DNA from: Planctomycetales bacterium
Lineage (GTDB): Bacteria; Planctomycetota; Planctomycetia; Isosphaerales; Isosphaeraceae
Direction of reading: 5' to 3'
Length of the DNA: 33,513 nucleotides
NCBI GenBank assembly: GCA_027451885.1
Contig: DAIDHX010000239.1
Location: 1-33,513, forward strand
Part shown: positions 596 to 33,513 of the stretch, piece by piece
Layout: every line of letters begins with the position of its first letter
Position numbering within the stretch: position 1 is the stretch's first letter
Notes under the pieces: generated by a model
Databases searched by the model: none
What the model saw: the letters and a program-made list of their open reading frames with translations, nothing else
What the model was told of the DNA's origin: nothing
Translations under genes and position numbers: made by a program

Positions 596-1750
596 CTAAC
601 GGGGGATGGAGTTCGAGCGATCCAGGCTGACAATGTGCCAACCGTCGAGCGCGTCGCGCAGGTCGCGCTCGGCGAATTCCCAGATCACCACGCGCTTGTT
701 CTTGAGCAGGTTCGGCCGCCGCGCGAGCTCCTGGCGCACCAGCGTTGCCCCACCGCCATCGTTCACGATCGAAGCGACGGGTGCTTGCAGTTCGCTGGCA
801 AGCTGGGCAAGAAACCCGGCCGAGCCCGGCTCGTCGCGTTCGTAGATGCGCAAAAAGCTGTCCCCCAGCACGAGAACCTCCGCGGCAGGCTCATCGTGAT
901 AGGGAACGTCTGAGTCCGGCTCGAGAACCTGGCGGCAGAGGACGCGCTCAGGGGAGACGAACGCCTCGATCGCGGGCGACTGGAGCATGAGCACAAGATC
1001 GCCCACGCGGTCCACGGCCGCCGTGCGCGCGCGATACCTGCGGTTGCCGAGTGCAATCGCGCCTGAGCGCAGAATGCGTTCCGCAACGGCGTGCGCGGCC
1101 AGTTGAGCCCCCTGGGGAGACCAGTGGGTATCCTGGGCCAGGTAAAGCGGCGAGGCGTGCACGCGTCCGCCACGCAACTGGCGAAACACCGTGAAGAGAT
1201 CGATCGCCGCGATCCCATGCCTGCGCAATTCGTCGAACAGCCAGGCGGTCCGCGCCGGCACGATCACCCCCGCATCCGTCGCCCGCCACGCAAGCTGATC
1301 CGGATAGACGCTCTCCTTCCCCGGGACCGGAACCACATAGAGCACAATCCCTCGCGCCTGGAGCTCGTCTCGAAATGCCCGGATCGCGTCGATCGCCGCT
1401 CGGCCTGGCTGCCAGGGCTCCGATCGACGCTCGACCACGAACCGCACGCCTGGCTCATAAAACAGCCAGCCGTCGCGCCCGGCAACTGCCTTCTCACCAG
1501 GGTCCGCAAGCAGCCGGAATCGCCCATATTGCACCCAGGGACGAAGCACACGCAGCACCAGGCTCGAACGCTCAAGATCACGCTCGAAATCGTGCAAATT
1601 CCGCGCGGTGGGCGCCCGGTCGAATACCTCGAACACCCCCGGGCGCTCGCGGTTACGCACCTCAAACGCCGTCTGAATCAGCCCAGGCGCGGCGATGATC
1701 GCCAGCAACGGCACGATCACAACCCAGTCTATCAATCGCTTGTTGCACAT
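596..1750 (-). CDS. AlgJ/AlgX-like SGNH-fold O-acetyltransferase
   Basis: A 384-residue protein with an N-terminal membrane anchor (residues 8-26) and a periplasmic SGNH-like domain. Family hallmarks are GRDGWLFY (91-98), PGKESVYPDQL (143-153), the catalytic DTHW motif (207-210) followed by a Pro-Gln-Gly turn, and VLGDSF (294-299) carrying the candidate nucleophilic serine. AlgJ and AlgX proteins place acetyl groups on exopolysaccharide outside the inner membrane, using acetyl delivered by an AlgI-type MBOAT protein. That partner is encoded immediately upstream with a 10-base gap, so the two form an acetylation pair. No other alginate gene is present, so the substrate is probably another surface glycan; it cannot be read from the sequence. 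Family assignment is firm, polymer unknown. Confidence 0.88.
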   Translation of the reverse strand: MCNKRLIDWVVIVPLLAIIAAPGLIQTAFEVRNRERPGVFEVFDRAPTARNLHDFERDLERSSLVLRVLRPWVQYGRFRLLADPGEKAVAGRDGWLFYEPGVRFVVERRSEPWQPGRAAIDAIRAFRDELQARGIVLYVVPVPGKESVYPDQLAWRATDAGVIVPARTAWLFDELRRHGIAAIDLFTVFRQLRGGRVHASPLYLAQDTHWSPQGAQLAAHAVAERILRSGAIALGNRRYRARTAAVDRVGDLVLMLQSPAIEAFVSPERVLCRQVLEPDSDVPYHDEPAAEVLVLGDSFLRIYERDEPGSAGFLAQLASELQAPVASIVNDGGGATLVRQELARRPNLLKNKRVVIWEFAERDLRDALDGWHIVSLDRSNSIPR

Positions 1751-1760
1751 GGCACTGCGC

Positions 1761-3203
1761 CTAGAACTGAAAATAGAGAAACGGATTGAACGACTGCGAA
1801 ATCATCACGAGAAGCGCCAGGCAAAACAGGGGATGGATCAACATCGCCCTGGAGCCCGTGATTTCCCGGCTCCAATCGTGGGCCTGCACCGGCCAGGCGA
1901 GCACAACCCCGGCGACCGCCATCACCGCAAGCGACGTGCGGGTGTAAAGCAGCGAAGGCAAGGCCAGCCAGGCGGGACCAGCGCTCGATTGCCCGCACAT
2001 CGCCGCCAGATAGATCAGGGCGTCGTGCAGGCTCGCCGCCCGAAAGAACACCCACGAAACCAGCACGAGCACAAGCGTGCCGCAGACCCGTATCCCCCGC
2101 GGCATTCCCAGCCAGAAGCCCCGCTTGCCGTGATAACGCTCGAGCGCGAGCAACACCCCGTGGTACGCGCCCCAGACCACGTATGTCCAGTTCGCCCCGT
2201 GCCAGAGCCCCCCCAGAAGCATCACCACCAAAAGGTTGACGTAGGTACGAATCGGCCCGCGGCGGTTTCCTCCCAGAGGAATATACAGATAATCACGCAA
2301 GAATGTACTCAGTGAAATGTGCCACCTGCGCCAGAAGTCCGTGATGCTCTGAGACTGGTAAGGCGCGTTGAAATTCCTGGGAAACTCAAAGCCGATCATC
2401 CGCGCAAGCCCGATGGCCATGTCGGAATAGCCGGCGAAGTCGAAGTAGATCTGGATCGAGAAGGCGACCGCCCCAAACCAGGCGTCAAGCGCACCAGGCG
2501 ACTGGGCGCCGAACGCGGCGTCGGCAACCCGCCCCATCGGATTGGCGAGCAAGATCTTTTTGGCGAATCCAAGCACGAACAGCACAATCCCGGAGCGGAA
2601 TCGCTCGGCGCTGACAGTCCTGTGCACAAGCTGCTCGGCCACGGTGTTGTAACGGATGATCGGCCCAGCCACGAGCTGGGGAAAAAACGCGATGTAACAG
2701 GCAAAATCGAGCCCGGATCGCACAGGCGCGGCCGTCCTGCGCTCGATGTCGATCGTGTAGCTCAACGCGTGGAACACATAAAACGAAATACCGATCGGCA
2801 GGGAGAGAGCGAGCACGGGCGCCCGCTCGACGCCGAACCAGGACAGCAGGTCGTTGAGGTTCTGCTCGAGAAAAGGTGCGTACTTGAAAAACCCAAGCGT
2901 TCCCAGGCTGGCAAGGATGGCGAGCCGCGTTGCCCTGGCCTTGCGCCTGGGGTCCACGCTCGGCCGCGACGCAACCCGCGCGCAGAGATAATTGATCGCG
3001 GTGACACCCAGCATCAACAAAACGAACCAGGGCTCCCACCAGCCGTAAAACACGTAACTGGCGCACACGAGGACCGCGTTCAGCACAAGCGAGCAGGCGC
3101 GATCACTGGCCCCAAGGCGGCGGCAGGCTTCGAGCAGTGAAAAGTAAAGCGCAAGGACGAGCGGCAAAAAGTAAAAGACGAAAAGAGAGGTGGTAAAGAC
3201 CAT
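1761..3203 (-). CDS. MBOAT-family O-acyltransferase, AlgI/PatA-like
   Basis: A 480-residue polytopic membrane protein with many hydrophobic helices. The N-terminus (MVFTTSLFVFYFLPLVLALY) is typical of AlgI. Diagnostic blocks are SITDFWRRWHISLS (286-299), FLRDYLYIPLGGNRRG (301-316) and GGLWHGANWTYVVWG (331-345), which holds the catalytic histidine His335. Proteins of this family move an acetyl group from a cytoplasmic donor across the inner membrane to a periplasmic transferase. The AlgJ/AlgX-like gene 10 bases downstream is the expected acceptor. A lipoprotein gene ends 15 bases upstream, so the three genes very likely share a transcript. Length matches the family. The acetylated polymer is not identifiable from this window. 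Confidence 0.93.
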   Translation of the reverse strand: MVFTTSLFVFYFLPLVLALYFSLLEACRRLGASDRACSLVLNAVLVCASYVFYGWWEPWFVLLMLGVTAINYLCARVASRPSVDPRRKARATRLAILASLGTLGFFKYAPFLEQNLNDLLSWFGVERAPVLALSLPIGISFYVFHALSYTIDIERRTAAPVRSGLDFACYIAFFPQLVAGPIIRYNTVAEQLVHRTVSAERFRSGIVLFVLGFAKKILLANPMGRVADAAFGAQSPGALDAWFGAVAFSIQIYFDFAGYSDMAIGLARMIGFEFPRNFNAPYQSQSITDFWRRWHISLSTFLRDYLYIPLGGNRRGPIRTYVNLLVVMLLGGLWHGANWTYVVWGAYHGVLLALERYHGKRGFWLGMPRGIRVCGTLVLVLVSWVFFRAASLHDALIYLAAMCGQSSAGPAWLALPSLLYTRTSLAVMAVAGVVLAWPVQAHDWSREITGSRAMLIHPLFCLALLVMISQSFNPFLYFQF

Positions 3204-3218
3204 GATCGGCCTGGCCGG

Positions 3219-3695
3219 TCATTCGCGGACGAGATCGGTCCAGACGGCCCAGTAAATCGGATCAGCACCTTCCTCGGCGTACTTGTTCAAAACTCCGCCG
3301 GAAAAGTGATCGAGCATCGCACCGTCGAGGGACAGGCGGTGGACATCGCCCGCGTGGAAGGTTTTGAGATTGCCGCCAATCGCCGGCACAAGCTTGTCGG
3401 CCACCTGAGCACGGGGCCTGGCAGGGTTGTAGTGGCCCACGTAGATCACATCGCCGTTCACCTTGCCGCGATGAACCTCAAGCACCTGATACTTGAGCAC
3501 GGTGGCGTAGTTATAGAGCTCGCGCTCGAAGATGGCCCCCGGTGGGATCTCGAGCAGCCTGGCCGTGACCTCGATCGTTCCATGCGTGTCGCGGCTGGGT
3601 TCGATATCGTAGGCCGCGGGGCCACAGCCGGGCGCAAGCCCCCCCGCGAGGACGAGCCATATCCCCACACCGGCCGAGCGCATGCTCTCACACAT
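3219..3695 (-). CDS. Lipoprotein at head of the O-acetylation operon
   Basis: A 158-residue protein with a signal peptide and lipobox (LAPGC, Cys24), so a lipid-anchored envelope protein is predicted. The start at 3695 has a GGGAGGCGAG ribosome site five bases upstream. The mature part alternates beta-prone segments (for example GTIEVTARLLEIP and YATVLKYQVLEVHRGKV) and looks like a small beta-rich domain, with no catalytic motif that I recognise. It is the first gene of the run that continues with the MBOAT protein (15-base gap) and the AlgJ/AlgX-like protein, so an accessory role in polysaccharide acetylation or sensing is plausible by position only. I do not recognise the family. The operon promoter must lie in 3696-3975, where nothing clear could be read. 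Confidence 0.7.
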   Translation of the reverse strand: MCESMRSAGVGIWLVLAGGLAPGCGPAAYDIEPSRDTHGTIEVTARLLEIPPGAIFERELYNYATVLKYQVLEVHRGKVNGDVIYVGHYNPARPRAQVADKLVPAIGGNLKTFHAGDVHRLSLDGAMLDHFSGGVLNKYAEEGADPIYWAVWTDLVRE

Positions 3696-3975: not shown

Positions 3976-4674
3976 TCATTGATCCGGTCCCTGAGCCACA
4001 GGCGGCCTGGCCGGGAAGAATTCATCCCCGGGTCTTGCCAGATAGGGCGTGGTGCGAATGTCTGGCTCCGGGCGAGCCAGGCCGTTCAAGACGTAACCAG
4101 CAAGGATCACCGGCCAGGGACCATCACCGCCAATCCCGAGTTCCTCCCTGGCCTCCGGCCTATCGAGGATGCTGGCAAATGCGAGATACTGAGTCTTCAG
4201 CGAGTCCAGCCCGACGGGTGGAAGGGACTCGAGGTCCGTGACCAACACGTCAATTTGAGCCTCGCGGTAGGCCTCAAGGACGAATCCCACGCAACTGAAA
4301 CGACGATACACAACGGTCTGGTCATCACGGCGGACCTCTTTGACATGGGGACAGATGACGTATTGCCCCGGAAAGCGTCCAACTTGTGCCGCTTTGAACT
4401 CAGATTCAAGCTCCTCAGAGAAGAGCTTGATCTGAAGCTGCTGGTCGACTGTCAAGCCGGCTGATCCGACGCAGTTGGCACGACATTCCCCCAGCGATTC
4501 CAATGGAGGGCGCATGTGCAAAACGGGTAGGACGGCGGACGATGCATAACTTTCGAGTTCTTGAGCCGCCAGAGCGACATGCCCTACGAAACTGAGCTCG
4601 TTCGACGCATCCTGACCCACGACGTCAAATTGTCGAATTGCGATCGGGCTGCTTCCCACTCTCTGGGCGGGCAT
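3976..4674 (-). CDS. Unknown protein, possible permuted NlpC/P60-like fold
   Basis: A 232-residue soluble protein, third gene of a tight three-gene cassette; its start lies 10 bases after the stop of the preceding gene, with AGGGACAG just upstream. Two short segments stand out: FVGHVAL (around His32) and FSCVGFVLEAYR (around Cys129). A small hydrophobic His strand preceding a Cys at a helix start is the order seen in circularly permuted NlpC/P60-type (YiiX or LRAT-like) enzymes, which hydrolyse or transfer amide and thioester bonds. That is inference from two short motifs. No signal peptide is visible, so a cytoplasmic location is likely. The C-terminus is Pro-rich. Base composition is clearly less GC-rich than the flanking operons. 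Function unknown. Confidence 0.62.
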   Translation of the reverse strand: MPAQRVGSSPIAIRQFDVVGQDASNELSFVGHVALAAQELESYASSAVLPVLHMRPPLESLGECRANCVGSAGLTVDQQLQIKLFSEELESEFKAAQVGRFPGQYVICPHVKEVRRDDQTVVYRRFSCVGFVLEAYREAQIDVLVTDLESLPPVGLDSLKTQYLAFASILDRPEAREELGIGGDGPWPVILAGYVLNGLARPEPDIRTTPYLARPGDEFFPARPPVAQGPDQ

Positions 4675-4684
4675 CTGTCTGTCC

Positions 4685-5770
4685 CTACGACGCGAGCGCG
4701 GATGGATCTAACTTGGTGAGTTGTTCGAGGACGTGAATGGTGTCAGCGAACTCCGCCCCCGGTCTTCGTGTTACAAGGTCCGCCCGAAGTCGACCTGCAC
4801 GGCGACCGACGAGTTGCTGAAACCACGCGACCTGAAGGGTCCGCATCGTTTCAACGACGTGCGTGTCCCGACCGCTCCGAGTCAGCACCAGCCCTAGTAC
4901 GGCATTGAGAGCGACAGCTCCGTACTTCTCACGGCTTAAGAGCCTTGGTCTCGCGTAGTCATCGACGAGTTCCTCGAGCCGGCGCGCCAGCTCGGAGTAC
5001 TGTTCGCGGTCTGCGGGAGGATTCGCGGTCAACTTCCGCACGACCATCTTGGTAACCTCGACCTCAAGGTCAATTGAGATCGAGTTCCTACTGTGCGCCT
5101 TCAAAAGGCTTGCAGCGGCCTCGAAGGCGTCATCGATTGTCGCTGTCGCAACGTAGTTCCGGATCGCGGAACCCACTGCGATCTGGTCGGCGGGGACGTT
5201 CGACTCCCGGTACCTCTCGACGAACTGACGTAGCAAAGGAGCGAGAGCGGCGGCTTGTTGACCTCGGAACGGCAGAACTTCTGATTCCAGGATCAACCTC
5301 CGACGCTCGTCATGCTCCAGATTGGGGCGCTGTAGAGACTCGATGATCGCTCCGCATCTCGATTCGGGATCGTCACGCTCCGCTTCTAACCACTTGTCCA
5401 AAGCGTGACGAACATCTTGCGAGCCCGGCTCCTCCGGATTGGGTACGGCAATCAGAAGCCTCGAAATCGCTACGACTTTCTCGAAATCAGCGTAATCCCT
5501 GGGGTTCCAGTCCACGGGAGTCGGCTCAGACTGTGGATCACCCCTGTCGACTTCTTGGGCGTATCGGAAGCTACGAGGACCCGAGGCCGTGCTCAACGGG
5601 AGTCCGTAATAGACCGGGACATCGCGATCTGGCATCACCGCACCAGAGCGGAACTCCTCGATCGATTCCCGAACGGGCTTTGGCAGTTTCCTGGGATGAT
5701 CTTCCCACCGCCCCCAGCTTGGGATCCCCGCAACTTGTAAGAAATTGGAGTACTTCTTTATCCTGCTCAT
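4685..5770 (-). CDS. Unknown all-helical protein of three-gene cassette
   Basis: A 361-residue protein. The ATG at 5770 is chosen because GAGGAT sits about eight bases upstream and it leaves a 19-base gap from the preceding gene; an in-frame start at 5875 would overlap that gene and lacks support. The first 90 residues hold a hydrophilic segment rich in Pro, Arg and Trp (IPSWGRWEDHPRKLPKP). Residues 100-360 read as a string of amphipathic helices (for example QQAAALAPLLRQFVERYR and EQYSELARRLEELVDDYARP), suggesting an alpha-solenoid or scaffold. There is no signal peptide, membrane helix or catalytic motif. Genes on both sides are 10 and 19 bases away, so the product probably works with theirs. 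I do not recognise the family. Confidence 0.68.
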   Translation of the reverse strand: MSRIKKYSNFLQVAGIPSWGRWEDHPRKLPKPVRESIEEFRSGAVMPDRDVPVYYGLPLSTASGPRSFRYAQEVDRGDPQSEPTPVDWNPRDYADFEKVVAISRLLIAVPNPEEPGSQDVRHALDKWLEAERDDPESRCGAIIESLQRPNLEHDERRRLILESEVLPFRGQQAAALAPLLRQFVERYRESNVPADQIAVGSAIRNYVATATIDDAFEAAASLLKAHSRNSISIDLEVEVTKMVVRKLTANPPADREQYSELARRLEELVDDYARPRLLSREKYGAVALNAVLGLVLTRSGRDTHVVETMRTLQVAWFQQLVGRRAGRLRADLVTRRPGAEFADTIHVLEQLTKLDPSALAS

Positions 5771-5789
5771 CAAAATCCTCGGTTCGCGA

Positions 5790-6494
5790 TTACTCGGCGG
5801 TCTCGGAGAGCCCATTGGGGATCCAGCCTTGGATCGATGCACGAAGGACCTCCAACTTGCGCTGTGCCTTGCCAACCGTCTCGCCGAGTTGCTTGAGCTG
5901 CTTCTCCGTCAGGACCAACTCGATACAGTTACCTTCTTCCTGCTGTGTATCGAACACGATCTTGAGGATCGTTTGAGTGACGAAGCCTTCGATCGACCTT
6001 CGGTCTGGATCAAAGACAGGTCGAGCATCGCAGACAATCTCGGTCTCTCGAATTTGATTGCCGGTAAGTGATTTCAGGCGGTGGGCTTTCCGCTGACGTT
6101 CGAGCGCCGGGTAGGGGCGAATCAACCTCGGTAAGATCGTTTCAATCGCTTGCAGCGACTCATCCGGGAATCGATCGACCCGGCTCTGAGCTGCCTGTCG
6201 CCAGGTCCGAAGCATTGCGAGGGACTGCTCGACTGACTGGGGGCGAAGTCCGCGGATAGCCCTGGCCAGTGCTTCGCCAACCTGCTCATCTTTTACTGTG
6301 TCGCCGATCACGGCCTTCAATCTGGCGTCGTCCAGGAATCCAGAAGCCGACTGCAGGTCCGTCGAGATCTGCTCGATGTTTTCCACGGAAAGCCGAGAAA
6401 TCGCGAGCAGGTCGCTGAGCATCTCCTCGGGCATGGAAACGCCGCGAATGAACTCTTCCGGAGAACTCGCCACGAAGAACACGCGATCGGCCAT
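5790..6494 (-). CDS. Unknown protein with COMM-like C-terminal domain
   Basis: A 234-residue protein, first gene of the three-gene cassette. Residues 8-115 are predicted helical (SPEEFIRGV, SVEQSLAMLRTWRQ). Residues 140-225 start with SLTGNQIRETEIVCDARPVF, continue with further beta-prone strands (FVTQTILKIVFDTQ, NCIELVL) and end in a long helix, LTEKQLKQLGETVGKAQRKL. A helical N-terminus, then strands, then one C-terminal helix in about 200 residues is the architecture of eukaryotic COMMD proteins, so I call it COMM-like; this is a shape and pattern resemblance, not a proven match. The conserved-looking CDARPVFDPDR segment may be a bacterial family signature. No signal or membrane segment is present. 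Upstream (6495-6742) is the only space for the cassette promoter. Confidence 0.66.
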   Translation of the reverse strand: MADRVFFVASSPEEFIRGVSMPEEMLSDLLAISRLSVENIEQISTDLQSASGFLDDARLKAVIGDTVKDEQVGEALARAIRGLRPQSVEQSLAMLRTWRQAAQSRVDRFPDESLQAIETILPRLIRPYPALERQRKAHRLKSLTGNQIRETEIVCDARPVFDPDRRSIEGFVTQTILKIVFDTQQEEGNCIELVLTEKQLKQLGETVGKAQRKLEVLRASIQGWIPNGLSETAE

Positions 6495-6742: not shown

Positions 6743-8152
6743 TCAGAGCAACCCAACGGCGCGCTGGAGGGTGAAGCCGTCGAGCACGAGGTCGTAAAAC
6801 ACGTCGTAATAGTCGGTGTAGGTCTGCACGCGCAGGGTTTCGGCGTCGAGCACCTCGGTGTTGGTGCCCACTTGCTGTACGTAGCGTTCGCGCGCGACGC
6901 GGAGGTTTTCCCGCGCCCGGTCGATCGCGGCCTGGGACACGGTGAGCCGCGCCCGATCGCTCTGGGTGGTTTCCCAGGCGCGGCGGATCGAAAGCGCGAT
7001 GAGCGACGCGGCGTCTTGCCGCAGCCGCAAGGTCTGAGCTTCACGCATCCGCAGGCCGTCGGCCCTGGTTTTCGACTTGCGGCCGTCGAAGAGCGTCCAC
7101 TGGGCTACAATTGAGCCTGTGAAGAAATTTGGATCGGTCAGGTGCGAATCCTGGAAGTAGATGTACCCGCCCAGCACGCCGACCTGAGGTTTGTGGCCGG
7201 CCTCGACCTGGCGGGCGCTTGCGGCGAGCTCGGCCGCCTGGGCGGAGAGTCCCGCGAGCTCGGGCCGATTGCGGATTGCAAGCTCGGTCAAGCGTGCGAT
7301 TTCGGCGTCGGACTCAGTCTTTTTCTCGGCTGCCCTGGTCTGTTTTTCGGCCGGCGATTCGACGTCGATTCTGGCCGCGGCCTCCGCCGCGTGTTCGGGC
7401 TGGACCTGAGACAGGCGAATCTCCTCAAGCTGCACTGGTGCATCGAGCGGCCGGGAGAGAAGCTGGTTGTACTGGGCGCGAGCGGTCTCGAGCTCGTTTT
7501 GCGTCTGAAGCGCCTTCTGGCGGCTGCGCGCCAGCGACACCTGGACTGAGAGCAGGTCGTTCCGGCTCGCTGCGCCCTCGTCAAACAGGCTTTGCACGTC
7601 GCGCACGTGGGCCTCGAGATTCTTTACACTGGTCTCGTTGAGCATGACCAGCTTCTCCAGCCGAAGCACGTTGAGATACGCCTTGGCGACTTCGATCTTG
7701 AGGTCGAGGGCGGATGTCTCGGTTGTTGCATGTGCGACCCCGACTGCCGCGGCCGAGCGATCGACGCCGGACTGAATTCGCCCGCCGGTATAGAGCGGGA
7801 TGTTCATGAGCGTTGAGGAAAAGAAGAAATTCTGATTCAAGAATGGAAAGCTAAAGGAGCTTAAGCCCGGCGATATTGCCCCAAGCTGAGGCGCGTTGAT
7901 TTTGAACGCGGGGGATTGGCTGAGGAACGTTTGGGCGTTCATGGTGTGGATGGTGGGGATGCGTTCGCGCCTGGCGGCGGAGAGGTCGCTCTGGGCGGCG
8001 GCGACGCCGATTCGCGCAGCCTGGAATCCCGAGTTCGCCTGAAGCGCAACGGTCCATGCGTCTTGCAAGGTCTCGCCTGCGTGCGCCACGGGCGCGGACG
8101 CAAGAGCGAGCGCAAGGCACCAGACTCGCGATCTCGCTCCTCCCATTCGCAT
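6743..8152 (-). CDS. TolC-family outer-membrane efflux protein
   Basis: A 469-residue protein with a signal peptide (VWCLALALASAPVAHA, cleavage near residue 25) followed by the typical TolC opening ETLQDAWTVALQANSGFQAAR. The body shows the two-fold repeated, long amphipathic helices of the family: KAYLNVLRLEKLVMLNETS with the DLLSVQVSLARSRQ segment in the first half and RRAWETTQSDRARLTVSQAA with RENLRVARERY in the second. Such proteins form trimeric channels through the outer membrane for efflux pumps or type I secretion. The insert at 270-300, rich in Glu, Lys and Arg, is unusual. The start at 8152 has AAAGGA eight bases upstream. No pump or membrane-fusion gene is adjacent in the window, so the partner is unknown. 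Confidence 0.9.
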   Translation of the reverse strand: MRMGGARSRVWCLALALASAPVAHAGETLQDAWTVALQANSGFQAARIGVAAAQSDLSAARRERIPTIHTMNAQTFLSQSPAFKINAPQLGAISPGLSSFSFPFLNQNFFFSSTLMNIPLYTGGRIQSGVDRSAAAVGVAHATTETSALDLKIEVAKAYLNVLRLEKLVMLNETSVKNLEAHVRDVQSLFDEGAASRNDLLSVQVSLARSRQKALQTQNELETARAQYNQLLSRPLDAPVQLEEIRLSQVQPEHAAEAAARIDVESPAEKQTRAAEKKTESDAEIARLTELAIRNRPELAGLSAQAAELAASARQVEAGHKPQVGVLGGYIYFQDSHLTDPNFFTGSIVAQWTLFDGRKSKTRADGLRMREAQTLRLRQDAASLIALSIRRAWETTQSDRARLTVSQAAIDRARENLRVARERYVQQVGTNTEVLDAETLRVQTYTDYYDVFYDLVLDGFTLQRAVGLL

Positions 8153-23753: not shown

Positions 23754-26249
<2,496 letters not shown>

Positions 26250-26253
<4 letters not shown>

Positions 26254-26537
26254 AGCCCCACGGCGAACGCGACGAGGAGCCCTTTGTACGCGAGATCCGC
26301 AGGCAGGCGGAGCGGGCCCGCGCCGGCCAGAATCTCAGCTTCTGGCAAGGGCTCAGCCTCATGGGCTCGGTCGGCTGGATGGTCGTTCTCCCCACGCTCC
26401 TCGGTGCGTTTCTCGGGCGCTTCATCGATGCTCGGTATGGAACCGGCGTCTTCTGGACGCTGTCCCTGCTGTCCCTGGGGCTCGTCTTTGGCTGCGCCAG
26501 CGTCTGGCGGCAGGTGCACCGGGAGCTCGAATCATGA
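26250..26537 (+). CDS. atpQ: N-ATPase subunit AtpQ
   Basis: A 95-residue membrane protein with two hydrophobic helices (GLSLMGSVGWMVVLPTLLGA and VFWTLSLLSLGLVFGCASVW) after a charged N-terminal helix (VREIRRQAERARAGQN). Its position third in the operon, between epsilon and AtpR, and its two-helix shape fit AtpQ of N-ATPases, a relative of the AtpI/AtpQ-type small proteins thought to help c-ring assembly or ion handling. It overlaps atpC upstream and AtpR downstream by four bases. Identity is based mainly on operon order and topology. Confidence 0.85.
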
Positions 26538-26803
26538 GCTCGATCGCCGCCGCGATCGCCGGCATGGGCCTGGGCATTGCCTACTTCGGCACCCTGTGGC
26601 TGGCCGTGATCCACGTGCTTAAGCGCCCGGCCTGGGCGGGCTGGCTGCCTTTCCTGGGAGTCGTCCGCCTGGGTTTTCTGGGGCTGGGGCTGGCCGCGCT
26701 TGGCCGGGACGGAACCAGCAGCGTGCTGGCTGGGCTCGGCGGCCTCTGGCTCTGCCGCCTGGTTCTCCTGCGCCAACTGGGGTTCAAACACCATGGGGCA
26801 TGA
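26534..26803 (+). CDS. atpR: N-ATPase subunit AtpR
   Basis: An 89-residue membrane protein with three hydrophobic helices: AIAGMGLGIAYFGTLWLAVI, GWLPFLGVVRLGFLGLGLAA and LAGLGGLWLCRLVLLRQLGF. Arg residues sit inside or at the edges of the second and third helices, as described for AtpR, which is proposed to interact with the essential Glu of c subunits during ring assembly. It is located between AtpQ and the a subunit, as in all N-ATPase operons known to me. Its last 11 bases overlap the atpB start. Strong by position, moderate by sequence alone. Confidence 0.85.
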   Translation: MSSIAAAIAGMGLGIAYFGTLWLAVIHVLKRPAWAGWLPFLGVVRLGFLGLGLAALGRDGTSSVLAGLGGLWLCRLVLLRQLGFKHHGA

Positions 26804-27479
26804 GGGTTTCGCGTCTCCCACACTGCTTGTCCTCGGGCCGATCGAGATCACGGCCACCGTCGTGTACTCGCTCGTCGCCTCGGGCCTGGTGATCGCGATC
26901 GCCCTGTTCGCCCGGCCTGGCCTCGAGCGCGAATCCTCGGGCTGGCCAGTCGCGGCGGAGCTGATCATCGAGCACTTCGAGGATCTCATGCAGGAGATGT
27001 TCGGGCGCGATCCCAGGCCGTTCACCCCGCTGATTGTCACGCTCGCGCTCTACATCAGCGCGGCGAACCTGCTCGGACTCGCCCCCGGAATGCACGCGCC
27101 GACGGCCGATTTCTCGACCACCGCCGCGCTCGCCGTCGTGGTCTTCTTCGCGGTCCCGTATTATGGAATCCGCACCCGGGGCCTGCGCGGGTATCTCGGC
27201 CGCTACGTCGAAGCCTCGCCGCTCTTGCTCCCCTTCGAGATCATCACCGAGTTCTCAAGGACGCTCGCCCTGGCCGTGCGGCTCTTCGGCAATGTCATGA
27301 GCGAGGAGCTCGTCATCGCCGTCCTGCTCTCGATCGCGGGGCTGCTGGTCCCCTTGCCGATGATGATGCTCGCGGTGCTGACCAGTGTCGTTCAGGCGTA
27401 CATATTTGCAGTCCTAACTGTTGTTTATTTGAGCGCGGCTGTTCGTGCTCAAAGTCGCTCGGAGGAGCCATCTCGATGA
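26793..27479 (+). CDS. atpB: N-ATPase a subunit
   Basis: A 228-residue integral membrane protein; the ATG at 26793 lies inside the end of atpR, and the longer open frame is a shadow. The hydrophobic helices include ATVVYSLVASGLVIAIALFA, LIVTLALYISAANLLGLAPG and LAVVVFFAVPYYGI. The essential stator arginine is in TLALAVRLFGNVMSEELVIA, and the last helices are PLPMMMLAVLTSVVQAYIFA then VLTVVYLSAAV. It forms the ion half-channels next to the c ring. It is short for an a subunit, but this is normal for N-ATPases. Confidence 0.93.
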   Translation: MGHEGFASPTLLVLGPIEITATVVYSLVASGLVIAIALFARPGLERESSGWPVAAELIIEHFEDLMQEMFGRDPRPFTPLIVTLALYISAANLLGLAPGMHAPTADFSTTAALAVVVFFAVPYYGIRTRGLRGYLGRYVEASPLLLPFEIITEFSRTLALAVRLFGNVMSEELVIAVLLSIAGLLVPLPMMMLAVLTSVVQAYIFAVLTVVYLSAAVRAQSRSEEPSR

Positions 27480-27745
27480 GCCCCGCGTTGATCTTCGCAA
27501 TCGTGTGCATGGTCGTTGCCAGCCTCACCACCGCCGTCGGGTCGATTGCGCCGGCGGTCAGCCAGGGGCGGGCGGTGCAGTCAGCGCTTGATGCCATCGC
27601 TCGCCAGCCGGATGCATCGGACCGGATCAGTCGCACGTTGTTCGTGGGGCTGGCGATGATCGAATCGCTGGCGATTTACAGCCTGGTGATCGCGCTCATT
27701 GTGCTGCTTGCGAACCCGTTTTTGTCACTTGTGCGCGGGCAATGA
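27476..27745 (+). CDS. atpE: N-ATPase c subunit, Na+-type ligand pattern
   Basis: An 89-residue two-helix hairpin: helix 1 ALIFAIVCMVVASLTTAVGS, loop ARQPDASDR and helix 2 FVGLAMIESLAIYSLVIALI. The ion-carrying Glu is Glu63. Aligned by eye with the Na+-dependent Ilyobacter c subunit, Gln30, Glu63, Ser64 and Tyr68 match its Na+ ligands Gln32, Glu65, Ser66 and Tyr70; the Thr67 position is Leu here. The pattern therefore points to Na+ rather than H+, but is not complete. The ATGA overlap with atpB and the gap of three bases before atpF keep it in the operon. Confidence 0.92.
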   Translation: MSPALIFAIVCMVVASLTTAVGSIAPAVSQGRAVQSALDAIARQPDASDRISRTLFVGLAMIESLAIYSLVIALIVLLANPFLSLVRGQ

Positions 27746-27748
27746 GCC

Positions 27749-28498
27749 ATGATGGTCAACGCCTGGACGTTCCTGTTTCAGCTTCTGAATTTTGTGGTGC
27801 TCGTGTACGTACTGCGGCGTTTGCTTTACCGGCCGCTGCACGAGGCGATCGACCGCCGCAGGGCGGCGAACGCGCGGGCGCTGGCCGAGGCCGAGTCGAT
27901 GCGTGGCCAGGCCGCCGCCCAGAAGCGGCAGCTCGAGGAACAGCTCGCGGGCCTGGACCGGGAGCGCCAAAGGGCGATCGGCGAGGTCCGCGACCGCGCC
28001 GAGGCCGAGCGCCAGAGCCTGCTGGCCGAGGCAGAGCGCGCGATCCAGTCGCGGCGGGACGACGTCGAGAAGCAGCTCGAGCAGGATCGGGCCGAGGCGG
28101 CGCGTGCGCTCCGCGGCGAGCTTGTGGACTGGGCCGTTGCGCTCGCGGAGCGCATGGTGCGGGAGGCCGCTGGCTCGAGCCTGCAGGACCACTTCGTCGA
28201 TCGGCTCATCGACGCGCTCGAGCATCCGCCGGCCCAGGAAGGGGCGGAGGGCCAAAAATCCTGGCAGCCCGAGGACCACGCGACGCTCGAGACGGCGGCC
28301 GATCTCAGCGGCGACCAGCTTGCTCGGATCACCCGCGCCCTGGAAGCGCGTTCGGGTCGATCGGTGCCGATCGTGGTCCAGAATCAGCCTGCGCTCGTGG
28401 TCGGCGTGCGCTTGCTCACGGACGGCCATGTGTGGGAGGCAACCCTTCACGGCGGGCTCGAGGCCGAGCCTGAAGCCGCGGCGAGCAGCAATCGATGA
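27749..28498 (+). CDS. atpF: N-ATPase b subunit with delta-like C-terminal extension
   Basis: A 249-residue protein, far longer than a normal b subunit of about 160. An N-terminal membrane helix (WTFLFQLLNFVVLVYVLRRL) is followed by a long charged coiled coil (residues 40-135) rich in Glu, Arg, Gln and Ala. After a loop at 170-185 comes a small domain, ATLETAADLSGDQLARITRA then LEARSGRSVPIVVQNQPALV, VGVRLLTDGHVWEATLHGGL. That looks like the C-terminal half of the delta subunit (AtpH), which is otherwise missing from this operon. Two ATGs are adjacent at 27749 and 27752. The reading is that the b subunit took over the delta stator function; the domain match is by eye. Confidence 0.88.
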   Translation: MMVNAWTFLFQLLNFVVLVYVLRRLLYRPLHEAIDRRRAANARALAEAESMRGQAAAQKRQLEEQLAGLDRERQRAIGEVRDRAEAERQSLLAEAERAIQSRRDDVEKQLEQDRAEAARALRGELVDWAVALAERMVREAAGSSLQDHFVDRLIDALEHPPAQEGAEGQKSWQPEDHATLETAADLSGDQLARITRALEARSGRSVPIVVQNQPALVVGVRLLTDGHVWEATLHGGLEAEPEAAASSNR

Positions 28499-30015
28499 AC
28501 CCAGGCATCGACCAGATCCGGGACCAGGTCCGCCAGACCCTCGCCGCCATGCGCTGGCGCGTGCGCCGCCGTGAAGTCGGCCGGCTCGTCTCCGTGGGCG
28601 ATGGCGTGGGCCGGGTCCGTGGCGCACCCTCGGTTCGGTTTGGCGAATTGCTCGAACGCGCGGACGGACTCACCGGCCTCGCCTTCGACATCCGCCCGCG
28701 CGAAATCGGCGTCCTGTTTCTCGACCCCTCGGAACACGTCTCCGCGGGCGATGAGCTCCGCGCCACCGGGCGCGTCTCCAGCGTCGCCGTCGACGACAAG
28801 CTGCTCGGACGCGTGGTCGACGCACTCGGCCGGCCAATCGACGGCGGACCCTCCTTCCGCCCGCGCGCCTACTGGCCCACCGAACGCGAAGCCCCAGGCG
28901 TGATCGACCGCCAGCCGGTCCGCGAGCCGATGCACACCGGAATCCAGGTGGTCGACACCCTGTTGCCGCTCGGGCGCGGCCAACGCGAGCTGATTCTCGG
29001 CGACCGAGCGACCGGCAAGACCTCGCTCGCGCTCGACGCCATCCTCGCCCAGCGCGGCAGCGAGGTCCTCTGCGTCTACACCGCCATCGGGCTCCGCAAG
29101 ACCAACGTGGCCGAGGTCGTCGACACCCTGGCGCAGGCGGGCGCACTTGCCAGCACCGTGGTTGTCGCGGCCGACGCGGAATCGCCCCCAGGCCAGCAAT
29201 ACCTGGCCCCTTACGCCGCCTGCACCATCGGCGAGTTCTTCATGAGCCAGGGCCGACATGTTCTCGTCGTCTACGATAGCCTGTCCAATCACGCCGACGC
29301 CTATCGCCGGATCGCGCTTTTGCTCGGACGCTCGCCCGGGCGCGAAGCCTATCCGCCCGACGTCTTCTATCTCCACGCCCGCCTGCTCGAACGCGCCACA
29401 AGGCTGCATGACCGCCTCGGCGGCGGCAGCCTGACCGCGCTGCCGATCGCCACCACACAGGCAGGCAATATCTCGGCCTACATTCCCACCAACCTCATCT
29501 CGATCACCGACGGCCAGCTCTACCTCGATAGCCACCTCTTCAATGAAGGCGTCCGCCCGGCCGTCGATGTGGGGCTCTCCGTCTCACGCGTCGGTGGCAA
29601 GGCCCAGCCCCGCGTCCTCCGCACCCTCGCCAGCGACCTCCGCCTGGTCTACGCCCAACTGCACGAGCTCGAAACCTTCGCCCGCTTTGGCGCAGAGCTC
29701 GAGCCCGAAACCCGCAGGCGCCTCGAGCTCGGGCGCAGGCTCCGCGAAGCCCTCAAGCAACCGCGGCTCGCTCCCTTGCGCGTCGGGCACCAGGCCGCGG
29801 TCCTGTTCGCCATCCGTGAAGGCTTCCTCGACTCCGTGCCCGTCGACCAGATCGTGCATTTTCTCGCCGACCTCCGCCGCCGCCTCGACGAGACCTGCGC
29901 TCATGTGCTCGACGCGATCGAACGCGAAAACACCCTCAGCACAGAATCGACGGCAAGCTTGAAACAAACCCTCGAAGCCCTGCAACGCAACCACGTCAAA
30001 GAGCAACCCCCATGA
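28495..30015 (+). CDS. atpA: N-ATPase alpha subunit
   Basis: A 506-residue non-catalytic nucleotide-binding subunit. Walker A is GDRATGKT (169-176); the segment VVYDSLSNHADAYRRIALLL with GRSPGREAYPPDVFYLHARL matches the alpha family, except that the usual YDDLSKQA has Ser in place of the second Asp. The arginine finger lies in VDVGLSVSRVGGKAQPRVLR. The N-terminal beta barrel is in place (residues 25-95). It overlaps atpF and atpG by ATGA. The N-terminal helix that normally binds delta is present but short, which fits the loss of a separate delta gene. Confidence 0.95.
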   Translation: MNPGIDQIRDQVRQTLAAMRWRVRRREVGRLVSVGDGVGRVRGAPSVRFGELLERADGLTGLAFDIRPREIGVLFLDPSEHVSAGDELRATGRVSSVAVDDKLLGRVVDALGRPIDGGPSFRPRAYWPTEREAPGVIDRQPVREPMHTGIQVVDTLLPLGRGQRELILGDRATGKTSLALDAILAQRGSEVLCVYTAIGLRKTNVAEVVDTLAQAGALASTVVVAADAESPPGQQYLAPYAACTIGEFFMSQGRHVLVVYDSLSNHADAYRRIALLLGRSPGREAYPPDVFYLHARLLERATRLHDRLGGGSLTALPIATTQAGNISAYIPTNLISITDGQLYLDSHLFNEGVRPAVDVGLSVSRVGGKAQPRVLRTLASDLRLVYAQLHELETFARFGAELEPETRRRLELGRRLREALKQPRLAPLRVGHQAAVLFAIREGFLDSVPVDQIVHFLADLRRRLDETCAHVLDAIERENTLSTESTASLKQTLEALQRNHVKEQPP

Positions 30016-30854
30016 GCGAGGAAGCCACGCACAGGCGTCATGAAGCCATCGAAACCGTGCACGACGTGGTCTCCGCCATGCGCGCCATCGCCGCTGGCCG
30101 CATCCAGAGCGCCCAGCGCGCGCTCGAAAGCGCGCGGCGCTATCACGAGATCGTGCTCCGCGGCCTGGCCCGCGTCTTGCCCGAAGCCTTCAATATCCCG
30201 CCGGCCGACCCTCGCCTGACCACGCTGCTCGTGATGACCTCCGAGCAACCACTCTGCGGCGCACTCAATCCGAACGTCCTCGCCCTCGCCGAACGCCGCT
30301 GGCTGGAGCTCAAGCAAGGCGGTCAAGTTCATCTGCTTGTGGTCGGCCAGCGCGGGATTCGCCAGCTCCTGGCCCGGAACATCACGCCTGACGGCGGCGA
30401 GCCCGCCGCGGCCTCGCTCGACGGGCTCCATGACCTCGTCAAACGCCTGGCCACGATGCTCGGCTCACGCCACGCCGCAGGCACGCTCGGCACCCTCCGC
30501 GTGATCTACAGCCGATACCAGTCGATCAGCGAGCAAATTCCCACCGAGGTCCAGATCTTGCCCCCAGACCTGAGCTTCGCCCAGCCTGCAACCCGCGCCC
30601 GCGCGCCTTTGCGCTATCTCCCCCCCGATCGGTTGCTCGCCGGGCTTGTAGATGAATATGTCTTTATCAGCCTCTACCTGCTCGCCGCCGAGTCCTTCAC
30701 CAGCGAACAGGCCAGCCGGCTCGTCGCCATGGACGCCTCGACCCGAAACACCGAACGCATGCTCGAATCGATCATCGACCTCGAGCGCAGGGAACGCCAG
30801 GACAGGATCACGCGCGAGGTTCTCGAGCTGATCGCCGCACGCTTCGCCGAGTAG
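30012..30854 (+). CDS. atpG: N-ATPase gamma subunit
   Basis: A 280-residue protein and last gene of the operon. The N-terminal helix HEAIETVHDVVSAMRAIAAG and the C-terminal helix MDASTRNTERMLESIIDLER with RRERQDRITREVLELIAARF are the two halves of the rotor coiled coil. The central domain has LLVMTSEQPLCGALNPNVLA, the counterpart of the Ser-Asp-x-Gly-Leu-Cys-Gly-x-Leu-Asn segment, with SEQPLCG replacing SDRGLCG. It couples c-ring rotation to ATP hydrolysis or synthesis in the F1 head. It converges with mqnE with 67 bases between. Confidence 0.9.
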   Translation: MSEEATHRRHEAIETVHDVVSAMRAIAAGRIQSAQRALESARRYHEIVLRGLARVLPEAFNIPPADPRLTTLLVMTSEQPLCGALNPNVLALAERRWLELKQGGQVHLLVVGQRGIRQLLARNITPDGGEPAAASLDGLHDLVKRLATMLGSRHAAGTLGTLRVIYSRYQSISEQIPTEVQILPPDLSFAQPATRARAPLRYLPPDRLLAGLVDEYVFISLYLLAAESFTSEQASRLVAMDASTRNTERMLESIIDLERRERQDRITREVLELIAARFAE

Positions 30855-32373: not shown

Positions 32374-32650
32374 CGTTGACATTCATGGCGTCGATCTCCT
32401 GCTCGCCGCATAAATTCCCCATGCACGCATCGCATGAAGTCCCTTCCCCGCACGCGCACCGCGGGCGCCCCCACCTCGGCCCGCGGGTGCCAACCGCGGG
32501 CCGCCGCCACCCACCGCCATATTGCCAAGGAACTCCCGCGGGATTCACCCGCTCACAACCAGACCGCCGCCCGCCGACCGCTGGGGCTCTGACCTCGGAG
32601 GCTCGCGGTTGAGCCTCTGGCCGCCGAGCCGCACGGCTGAGCCCCGCGAC

Positions 32651-32788
32651 CGGTCTGCCCGACTCACCGCCGCCGGTCGACCCGACTCACCGCCGACGGT
32701 CTGCCCGACTCAACGCCGCCGGTCTGCCCGACTCACCGCCGCCGGTCTGCACGACTTAACGCCGTCGGTCTCGCCGACTCACCGCCTG
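32651..32788. repeat. Six tandem 23-bp repeats
   Basis: Six head-to-tail copies of a 23-base unit, beginning CGGTCTGCCCGACTCACCGC and ending CGC, at 32651, 32674, 32697, 32720, 32743 and 32766. Copies 1 and 4 are identical and the others differ at a few positions. There are no spacers, so this is not a CRISPR array. The last copy covers the stop codon of the adjacent repeat-protein gene (32779-32781). Confidence 0.85.
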
Positions 32789-33513
32789 CGGTTCTTCCGC
32801 CTGCTCTCTTTCTGCCGCCGGCGTTCTTCCTTCCGCTTCTTCCGCTCCCTGGCCTCCGCCGAGTCGTTCCGCCGCTCCTGCGCCCGCCCAGCGTTCTCAG
32901 CACGCCTGGAACCGGCCGGATTCGTGTCACTCACACTCGACGCAAGCTCTTTCTCAGTAACGGTCTGCGACACGTTTTCCGGGCCGTTGGGTTCGCTTCG
33001 CAAAAGCGCGGTGGGTTCGCTCTGAACAGGCGCGGTGGCTTCGGTTTGTTCCAGAGTCGAGTCGCCGGTCTGAAGGCCCAACCGATCGCGCTCCCCATAC
33101 TGACTTTGCATGTCCAGGATAGGGGGATTTGTGTTGTTCGAACTCGACGTAACATCCTGCGGCACATCATCCTGCGGCACGTTTTCAGGGGCGTTGGATT
33201 CGCTTCGCAAAAGCGCGGTGGGTTCGCTCTCGACAGGCGCGGTGGCTTCGGTTTTTTCCAGCGTCGGGTCGCCGGTCTGGAGGTCCAACCGATCGCGCTC
33301 CCCAAGCTGACTTTGCATGTCCAGGATAAGGGGATTTGTGTCGTTCGAACTCGACGCAAGCTCTTTCTCTGTAACGGCCTGCGACGCCTCCGCCGGGCCG
33401 TTGGGTTCGCTTCGCAAAAGCGCGGTGGGTTCGCTCTGAACAGGCGCGGTGGCTTCGGTTTTTTCCACCGTCGCGTCGCCGGTCTGGAGGTCGAACCGAT
33501 CGCGCTCCCCATA
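32779..33513 (-). CDS. Repeat protein with basic tail, 5' end beyond window
   Basis: A gene whose 5' part lies outside the window: the frame is open to the last base, and 244 residues are visible. The visible part has two complete 69-residue repeats (33510-33304 and 33303-33097) and a third, decaying copy. Each begins GERDR(F/L)xLQTGD, goes on to EKTEATAPVxSEPTALLRSE and ends near ILDMQSQ. The repeats are acidic, rich in Ser, Thr, Pro, Glu and Gln, and look disordered. The C-terminal 40 residues change to very basic (ERKKRKEERRRQKESRRKNR). No fold is recognised. A tail like this may bind nucleic acid or acidic polymers; that is a guess from charge. The ORF in another frame (32931-33512) is a shadow. 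Confidence 0.7.
   Translation of the reverse strand, partial: YGERDRFDLQTGDATVEKTEATAPVQSEPTALLRSEPNGPAEASQAVTEKELASSSNDTNPLILDMQSQLGERDRLDLQTGDPTLEKTEATAPVESEPTALLRSESNAPENVPQDDVPQDVTSSSNNTNPPILDMQSQYGERDRLGLQTGDSTLEQTEATAPVQSEPTALLRSEPNGPENVSQTVTEKELASSVSDTNPAGSRRAENAGRAQERRNDSAEARERKKRKEERRRQKESRRKNRRR
32917..33513. repeat. 207-bp in-frame coding repeats
   Basis: Two complete 207-base units (33097-33303 and 33304-33510) and one partial unit (to about 32917) within the gene at the right edge. The sequence similarity is high at the DNA level, including third codon positions, which points to recent duplication. More copies probably lie beyond 33513. Confidence 0.85.

Follow-up and report, generated by a model that had tools for sequence, protein, structure and literature searches.

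The stretch of DNA analysed here, 33,513 nucleotides of contig DAIDHX010000239.1 from the Planctomycetales assembly GCA_027451885.1 (hereafter the window), carries a compact cassette of three genes, designated A, B, and C, all of which lie on the minus strand. Gene A (5790..6494, 234 amino acids) is predicted to encode a bacterial COMMD-like protein, gene B (4685..5770, 361 amino acids) a helical middle protein restricted to the permuted-NlpC/P60 class of such cassettes, and gene C (3976..4674, 232 amino acids) a circularly permuted papain-like NlpC/P60 enzyme of the YiiX/LRAT-like type. The genes are intact and run head to tail, with gaps of 19 bases between A and B and 10 bases between B and C, and gene A possesses a good ribosome-binding site (AGGAG, 9 bases ahead of the ATG). 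None of the three proteins has a match above cut-off in Pfam, NCBIfam, or PADLOC. The cassette is also distinguished by its base composition. Its guanine-cytosine (GC) content is 0.583 versus a comparison value of 0.652, it overlaps the lowest-GC stretch of its length in the window, and the GC content at third codon positions (GC3) of genes A, B, and C is 0.627, 0.652, and 0.681, respectively. Among the remaining 26 window genes with 100 or more amino acids, GC3 is 0.808 +/- 0.037 with a minimum of 0.706, and none is as low as the cassette. A preliminary description made from the sequence alone had reported both the spacing of the genes and their lower GC content than the surroundings, and the measured values agree with it on both counts.

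Protein A combines a helical N-terminal (HN-like) domain at about residues 20-143 with a COMM-like beta-beta-beta-alpha domain at about residues 145-224. In an alignment of 29 members, the Arg-Pro pair of a D-x-R-P-[VI]-[FY] motif (residues 156-161) is invariant, as is a Lys in the last helix. The sequence of A alone found no match in the PDB and a family profile of the 29 relatives was needed, which matched the bacterial COMMD-like structure 9q6a over positions 5-214 (E=6.1e-26). The AlphaFold2 model of A (pLDDT, predicted local distance difference test, of 85) places eight helices at 23-143, followed by a COMM domain of three strands (147-161, 168-182, and 188-195) and one helix (197-224) with pLDDT mostly 85-95. 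Foldseek, given this model, placed the octameric 9q6a at the top of its list (E=2.9e-7), followed by the human COMMD ring 8p0w (E=6.5e-4). VIA-align gave a Z score of 12.5 against 9q6a and of 7.4-7.9, over 69-77 residues, against the human COMM domains of COMMD9, the COMMD5/7/9/10 tetramer, and the ring; the COMM domain of COMMD9 itself reached Z 7.9 over 77 residues at 3.4 A, and its HN domain Z 3.8. The first unrelated entry scored Z 6.3 over 142 poorly superposed residues (12.4 A), and the rest did not exceed 4.8. Profile search and structure prediction, both of which had been proposed as checks, thus point to a COMMD-like fold, and the COMM-like C-terminus suspected earlier in a two-domain protein is borne out.

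On profile and model evidence, therefore, A is a bacterial COMMD-like protein. The Pfam COMM_domain model PF07258 detected nothing above its cut-off in 10 genomes that carry A, which explains why proteins of this type go unannotated and why A is termed COMMD-like rather than a member of the eukaryotic COMMD family. Its closest structural counterpart is MBK5214510 of a Flavobacteriaceae bacterium, an octameric COMMD-like protein (9q6a, 9q6c, and 9q6d) with the same two-domain fold across the whole of A, which differs in being only 16% identical and from another phylum. By analogy with this solved relative, A probably assembles as a ring-shaped homo-oligomer. The fold of A was thus already known from 9q6a, whose release date is 2025-10-01. 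PADLOC matches of A to PglZ and DpdC (E 0.002-0.006) were judged to be due to chance.

The assignment of protein C rests on its catalytic residues and their order. Across the 11 homologues compared, H32, Y105, S127, and C128 never vary and H53 is replaced just once, by Glu in genome G054; the predicted catalytic quartet H32/H53/Y105/C128 is complete. The conserved motifs are HxxPP and FSC, the former of which resembles the motif of PLAAT. In all 11 homologues the catalytic His precedes the Cys in the sequence, which is the mark of a circular permutation, and a canonical NlpC/P60 chain aligned to the C profile as two pieces in swapped order, at a score below significance. The quartet has the same positions and order (His-polar-Tyr-Cys) as in BcPPNE and YiiX, whose catalytic residues are H49/E64/Y127/C154 and H49/E64/Y115/C128, respectively (PMC3142127). 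VIA-align with the C model gave Z 8.6 over 145 residues for YiiX and Z 7.8 over 135 residues for BcPPNE (3kw0), the rest being at most 3.3. By sequence and model, C is accordingly described as a permuted NlpC/P60 (papain-like, YiiX/LRAT type) enzyme, and both the architecture and the catalytic residues uphold the permuted NlpC/P60 motifs that had been suggested as possible. The order and topology are shared with YiiX and BcPPNE (PDB 2if6 and 3kw0) and with LRAT/PLAAT; C differs from these in its low identity (about 10-17%), in an extra C-terminal region, and in its operon with COMMD-like and adaptor genes. A canonical NlpC/P60 cell-wall amidase was rejected on account of the permuted catalytic order, and a Pfam CSL4_N match that did not reach the cut-off (E 8e-4), seen in a single one of the 11 members, was judged to be chance. 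As a fatty acid was found in YiiX and these enzymes have a hydrophobic S1 pocket (Xu et al., PMC3142127), a lipid or acyl substrate is plausible for C.

Protein B, judged helical from its sequence in line with the earlier all-helical call, comprises a variable N-terminal extension of about 109 amino acids and a conserved C-terminal domain of about 236 amino acids. The extension measures 58-167 amino acids (depending on start choice) where A is present and at most 23 amino acids in two B-C loci lacking A. As B is long only beside A, these two cases are suggestive of the extension as the A-binding part. It may be likened to the CCDC22/CCDC93 linkers which weave through the human COMMD ring (PMC10187114).

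The three genes are conserved as a unit beyond chance. Iterated profiles of B and C, applied to all fetched loci, located both partners beside A in 10 planctomycete loci from several families, with gene order and strand preserved: the window and nine others (L006, L007, L038, L039, L040, L043, L044, L045, and L046), among which identity between A proteins falls to 22%. In an eleventh locus, L059, the gene between A and C is unrelated to B. The preliminary description had asked whether the genes recur together in other planctomycetes and had allowed that they might not, or that each might belong to a housekeeping family; ten loci share them, and no housekeeping family was matched. A single A sequence found no match in a search of genome contigs, and a four-row alignment led to six loci. 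With the profile, relatives of A turned up in 15 of the 154 genera of the class (22 of 297 genomes). Beyond the class, a small number of other genomes of the phylum and a Methylococcales sponge symbiont also hold relatives. Searching in the opposite direction, from C, matched 12 of 297 genomes: A stood beside C in 8, B and C occurred without A in two (G025 and G006), one match lay at a contig edge (G008), and one was a fragment beside IS66-like transposase pieces (G039). These counts make B and C the tightest pair, with A as the usual third member. Weak A matches in G025, G592, and G714 fell in long unrelated frames or matched the model only partially, and they were set aside. The gammaproteobacterial COMMD-like gene of the sponge symbiont (L042:7998-8585) is followed by two small membrane- or coiled-coil-looking genes, with no recognised effector beside it. 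Additionally, a separate supported clade of COMMD-like proteins (L061, L062, and L064 in G059 and G062) has no recognised effector adjoining.

The surroundings of the cassette bear on its origin. It lies, as had been described, between a TolC-type outer membrane efflux protein gene (6743..8152, minus strand; OEP, PF02321 E=1e-43), which is outside the cassette and does not adjoin it in other genomes, and an O-acetylation module on the same strand (596..3695) composed of a lipoprotein gene (3219-3695), an MBOAT O-acyltransferase gene (1761-3203), and an AlgX-like gene (596-1750). The congener G002 has the orthologous lipoprotein-MBOAT-AlgX trio without the cassette, in place of which a DUF1559-type pilin gene (identified by eye) stands upstream, and another congener, G001, carries the cassette in a different neighbourhood. 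The low GC3, the absence at the orthologous G002 site, and the patchy distribution of A together support gain of the cassette by transfer, which had earlier been suggested from its low GC content. G001 also has two COMMD-like genes of different effector classes, L006 and L063, one in a permuted NlpC/P60 cassette and the other in a metallo-beta-lactamase (MBL) cassette ended by the contig end.

Across the 33 A loci surveyed, the COMMD-like protein is the constant component, and the enzyme, the class of which could be assigned in 26 of 33, is one of four kinds: permuted NlpC/P60, an MBL-fold hydrolase, a second permuted papain-like family, or DUF7689. The MBL class comprises 8 loci (one of them a contig-edge fragment) with THPHxDH and HHGS motifs, and its members are related to ComEC and to defence MBL models (LmuA, DRT-MBL, and Avs1a). 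The second His-His-Cys class has 4 loci (L051, L053, L054, and L084) and is called permuted papain-like by motif only, while DUF7689 was recognised in 3 loci (E 1e-32 to 1e-41). The effector label needs 10 changes on the A tree versus 18.8 when shuffled and is therefore clustered; even so, swaps occur inside supported clades, one of them (98/91) with members of the MBL, second-papain, and DUF7689 classes. Middle genes of one effector class are homologous to each other (leave-one-out E 1e-15 to 1e-64), and no leave-one-out match under 0.05 was obtained between classes. The exceptions are L059 with its unrelated B and L058, where an IS4-like transposase was taken as B. In the latter locus (L058:10440-11711, genome G003), the IS4-like transposase gene, identified by eye, stands between the COMMD-like gene and the MBL effector and apparently interrupts the cassette.

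A constant A, a class-specific B, and an interchangeable C follow the logic of a multi-component conflict system, and two features of three-component conflict systems are thus present, namely a constant component with interchangeable effectors and a class-specific middle component. The same data bear on an alternative, in which B inhibits the enzyme C as in a toxin-antitoxin pair, A is a later-added regulator or sensor, and addiction, not defence, keeps the genes in place. In favour of such a pair, only short gaps separate the neighbouring B and C, the two are paired in all 12 loci with a B of the permuted-NlpC/P60 class, including two without A, and the middle gene follows the effector class closely. 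However, most loci do contain A, which is the sole component common to all four effector classes, which a two-gene addiction module does not explain, and B is bigger than usual antitoxins. An addiction module is consequently considered unlikely.

A link of the cassette to defence comes from genome G054 (locus L007), where it lies within a type 2 bacteriophage exclusion (BREX) operon, all on one strand, in the order pglX (C-terminal part), A, B, C, second B/C remnants, brxC/pglY, pglZ, brxD, and brxHI. The remnants (L007:13398-13864) are C-terminal fragments of both genes, i.e., a decayed second B and C copy right after the intact cassette, and suggest a tandem duplication or replacement in the BREX slot. 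Elsewhere, a TmtA-family gene precedes the cassette by about 250 bases in L038, AbiEi/AbiEii lie near L047, and a phosphorylase gene with an ABC-3C CTD10 domain (PNP-CTD10) is near L058. From G054, with its intact cassette and decayed second copy in the same slot, it could be argued that the cassette is a passenger or regulator dependent on BREX. This seems very improbable, as the link is confined to one locus: no BREX core gene, PglZ included, is among the window gene calls, and no BREX genes were seen beside cassette copies other than that of G054. Moreover, none of A, B, and C is a BREX core gene, and the cassette as a BREX component was rejected for the same reason of a single locus.

On a modest balance of probability, the cassette is best explained as a three-component effector system, most likely serving in conflict with phages or other invaders. 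In this scheme, A would form a ring-shaped COMMD-like oligomer acting as the constant scaffold or sensor, and B would serve as an adaptor, binding the ring through its long N-terminal extension and keeping hold of the effector, perhaps in a restrained state, through its conserved helical domain. This effector would be C, acting as a hydrolase or acyl-transfer enzyme with the Cys-His-Tyr residues of the permuted papain-like (YiiX/LRAT) type. A trigger would set C free or switch it on, whereupon it would hydrolyse an acyl or amide linkage, its target plausibly being a lipid, lipoprotein, or cell-wall-linked substrate, and its action would harm or reprogram the infected cell. The anatomy of the cassette is well supported, and the confidence placed in the mechanism is moderate. 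Observation covers the conserved three-gene unit, the COMMD-like fold, the catalytic quartet, the swapping of effectors along with their middle genes, and the single BREX-embedded copy; oligomerisation of this A, docking of B on A, the adaptor or restraining role of B, the trigger, the substrate, and the anti-phage role are inferred.

Several observations weigh against the proposed effector system. With regard to the enzyme, the C model used above (pLDDT 74) is the best of five and the only confident one, the other four being under 50; Foldseek returned no match with it, and no NlpC/P60 or LRAT model of Pfam matched C. A is not strictly required, as the two B-C loci lacking it indicate. No relatives of A or C were found in viral contigs, nor were relatives found in plasmids, and PglZ had no match in the window's own genome (G000) in a search without positive control. 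Furthermore, the neighbours of the cassette in the window are housekeeping genes, and when 127 neighbour proteins were compared with 124 random ones (PADLOC E<=1e-20), defence genes were not clearly enriched, so that no statistical association with defence islands is claimed. Across the cassettes, too, housekeeping genes make up most of the neighbours. This and the lack of clear enrichment, together with C relatives (YiiX/LRAT) that bind or act on lipids (PMC3142127), would suit a housekeeping or physiological regulatory system of planctomycetes that takes no part in conflict, for example one that de-acylates lipids or proteins. This explanation is nevertheless doubtful in view of the patchy occurrence, the low GC3, and the gap at the orthologous site in a congener, as well as the repeated replacement of the enzyme by unrelated hydrolases and the copy embedded in BREX. 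Of the roles offered by the preliminary description (defence, signalling, or protein modification), defence or conflict is thus favoured by effector swapping and the BREX copy; the check it proposed for nearby defence islands turned up defence neighbours in single loci (BREX, TmtA, AbiE, and PNP-CTD10), with no clear enrichment in aggregate.

The proposed effector system may be compared with known ones. ABC-3C and other ternary conflict systems combine a constant part, a class-specific middle part, and an exchangeable effector, and the cassette follows the same general logic. It differs from ABC-3C in having no ATPase/NTPase and in the COMMD-like nature of its constant part, and membership in ABC-3C was rejected as there is no ATPase among A, B, and C. 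The HN and COMM architecture of A is common to the COMMD1-10 ring of the human Commander complex, which differs as a eukaryotic hetero-decamer engaged in endosomal recycling and bound by CCDC22/CCDC93. The COMMD family was until recently regarded as purely eukaryotic, and a 2023 analysis described COMMD proteins as without bacterial or archaeal homologues (PMC10187114). In a literature search that excluded preprints and most subscription journals, neither the cassette nor bacterial COMMD-like proteins were found described, and the researchers responsible for 9q6a may have reported the cassette already. A constant place in modular effector cassettes gives COMMD-like proteins a bacterial context and a testable function, and connects them with hydrolase effectors and, for a single copy, with BREX. 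The candidate effector repertoire also gains permuted papain-like and DUF7689 enzymes. Tentatively, and as a conjecture with a rather low chance of being right, bacterial COMMD-like rings could be immune scaffolds that hold exchangeable hydrolase effectors via ring-threaded adaptors, and the eukaryotic COMMD ring, threaded by CCDC22/CCDC93, could descend from such a bacterial conflict system. This offers a concrete hypothesis for the origin of the Commander ring.

Two other features of the window lie apart from the cassette. An ATP synthase operon at 24476-30854, with the order beta, epsilon, small membrane genes, a, c, b, alpha, and gamma, looks like an N-ATPase operon, as recognised by eye only. 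At 32620-33513, tandem repeats of 207, 46, and 23 bases occur in and before an open frame which runs off the window end.
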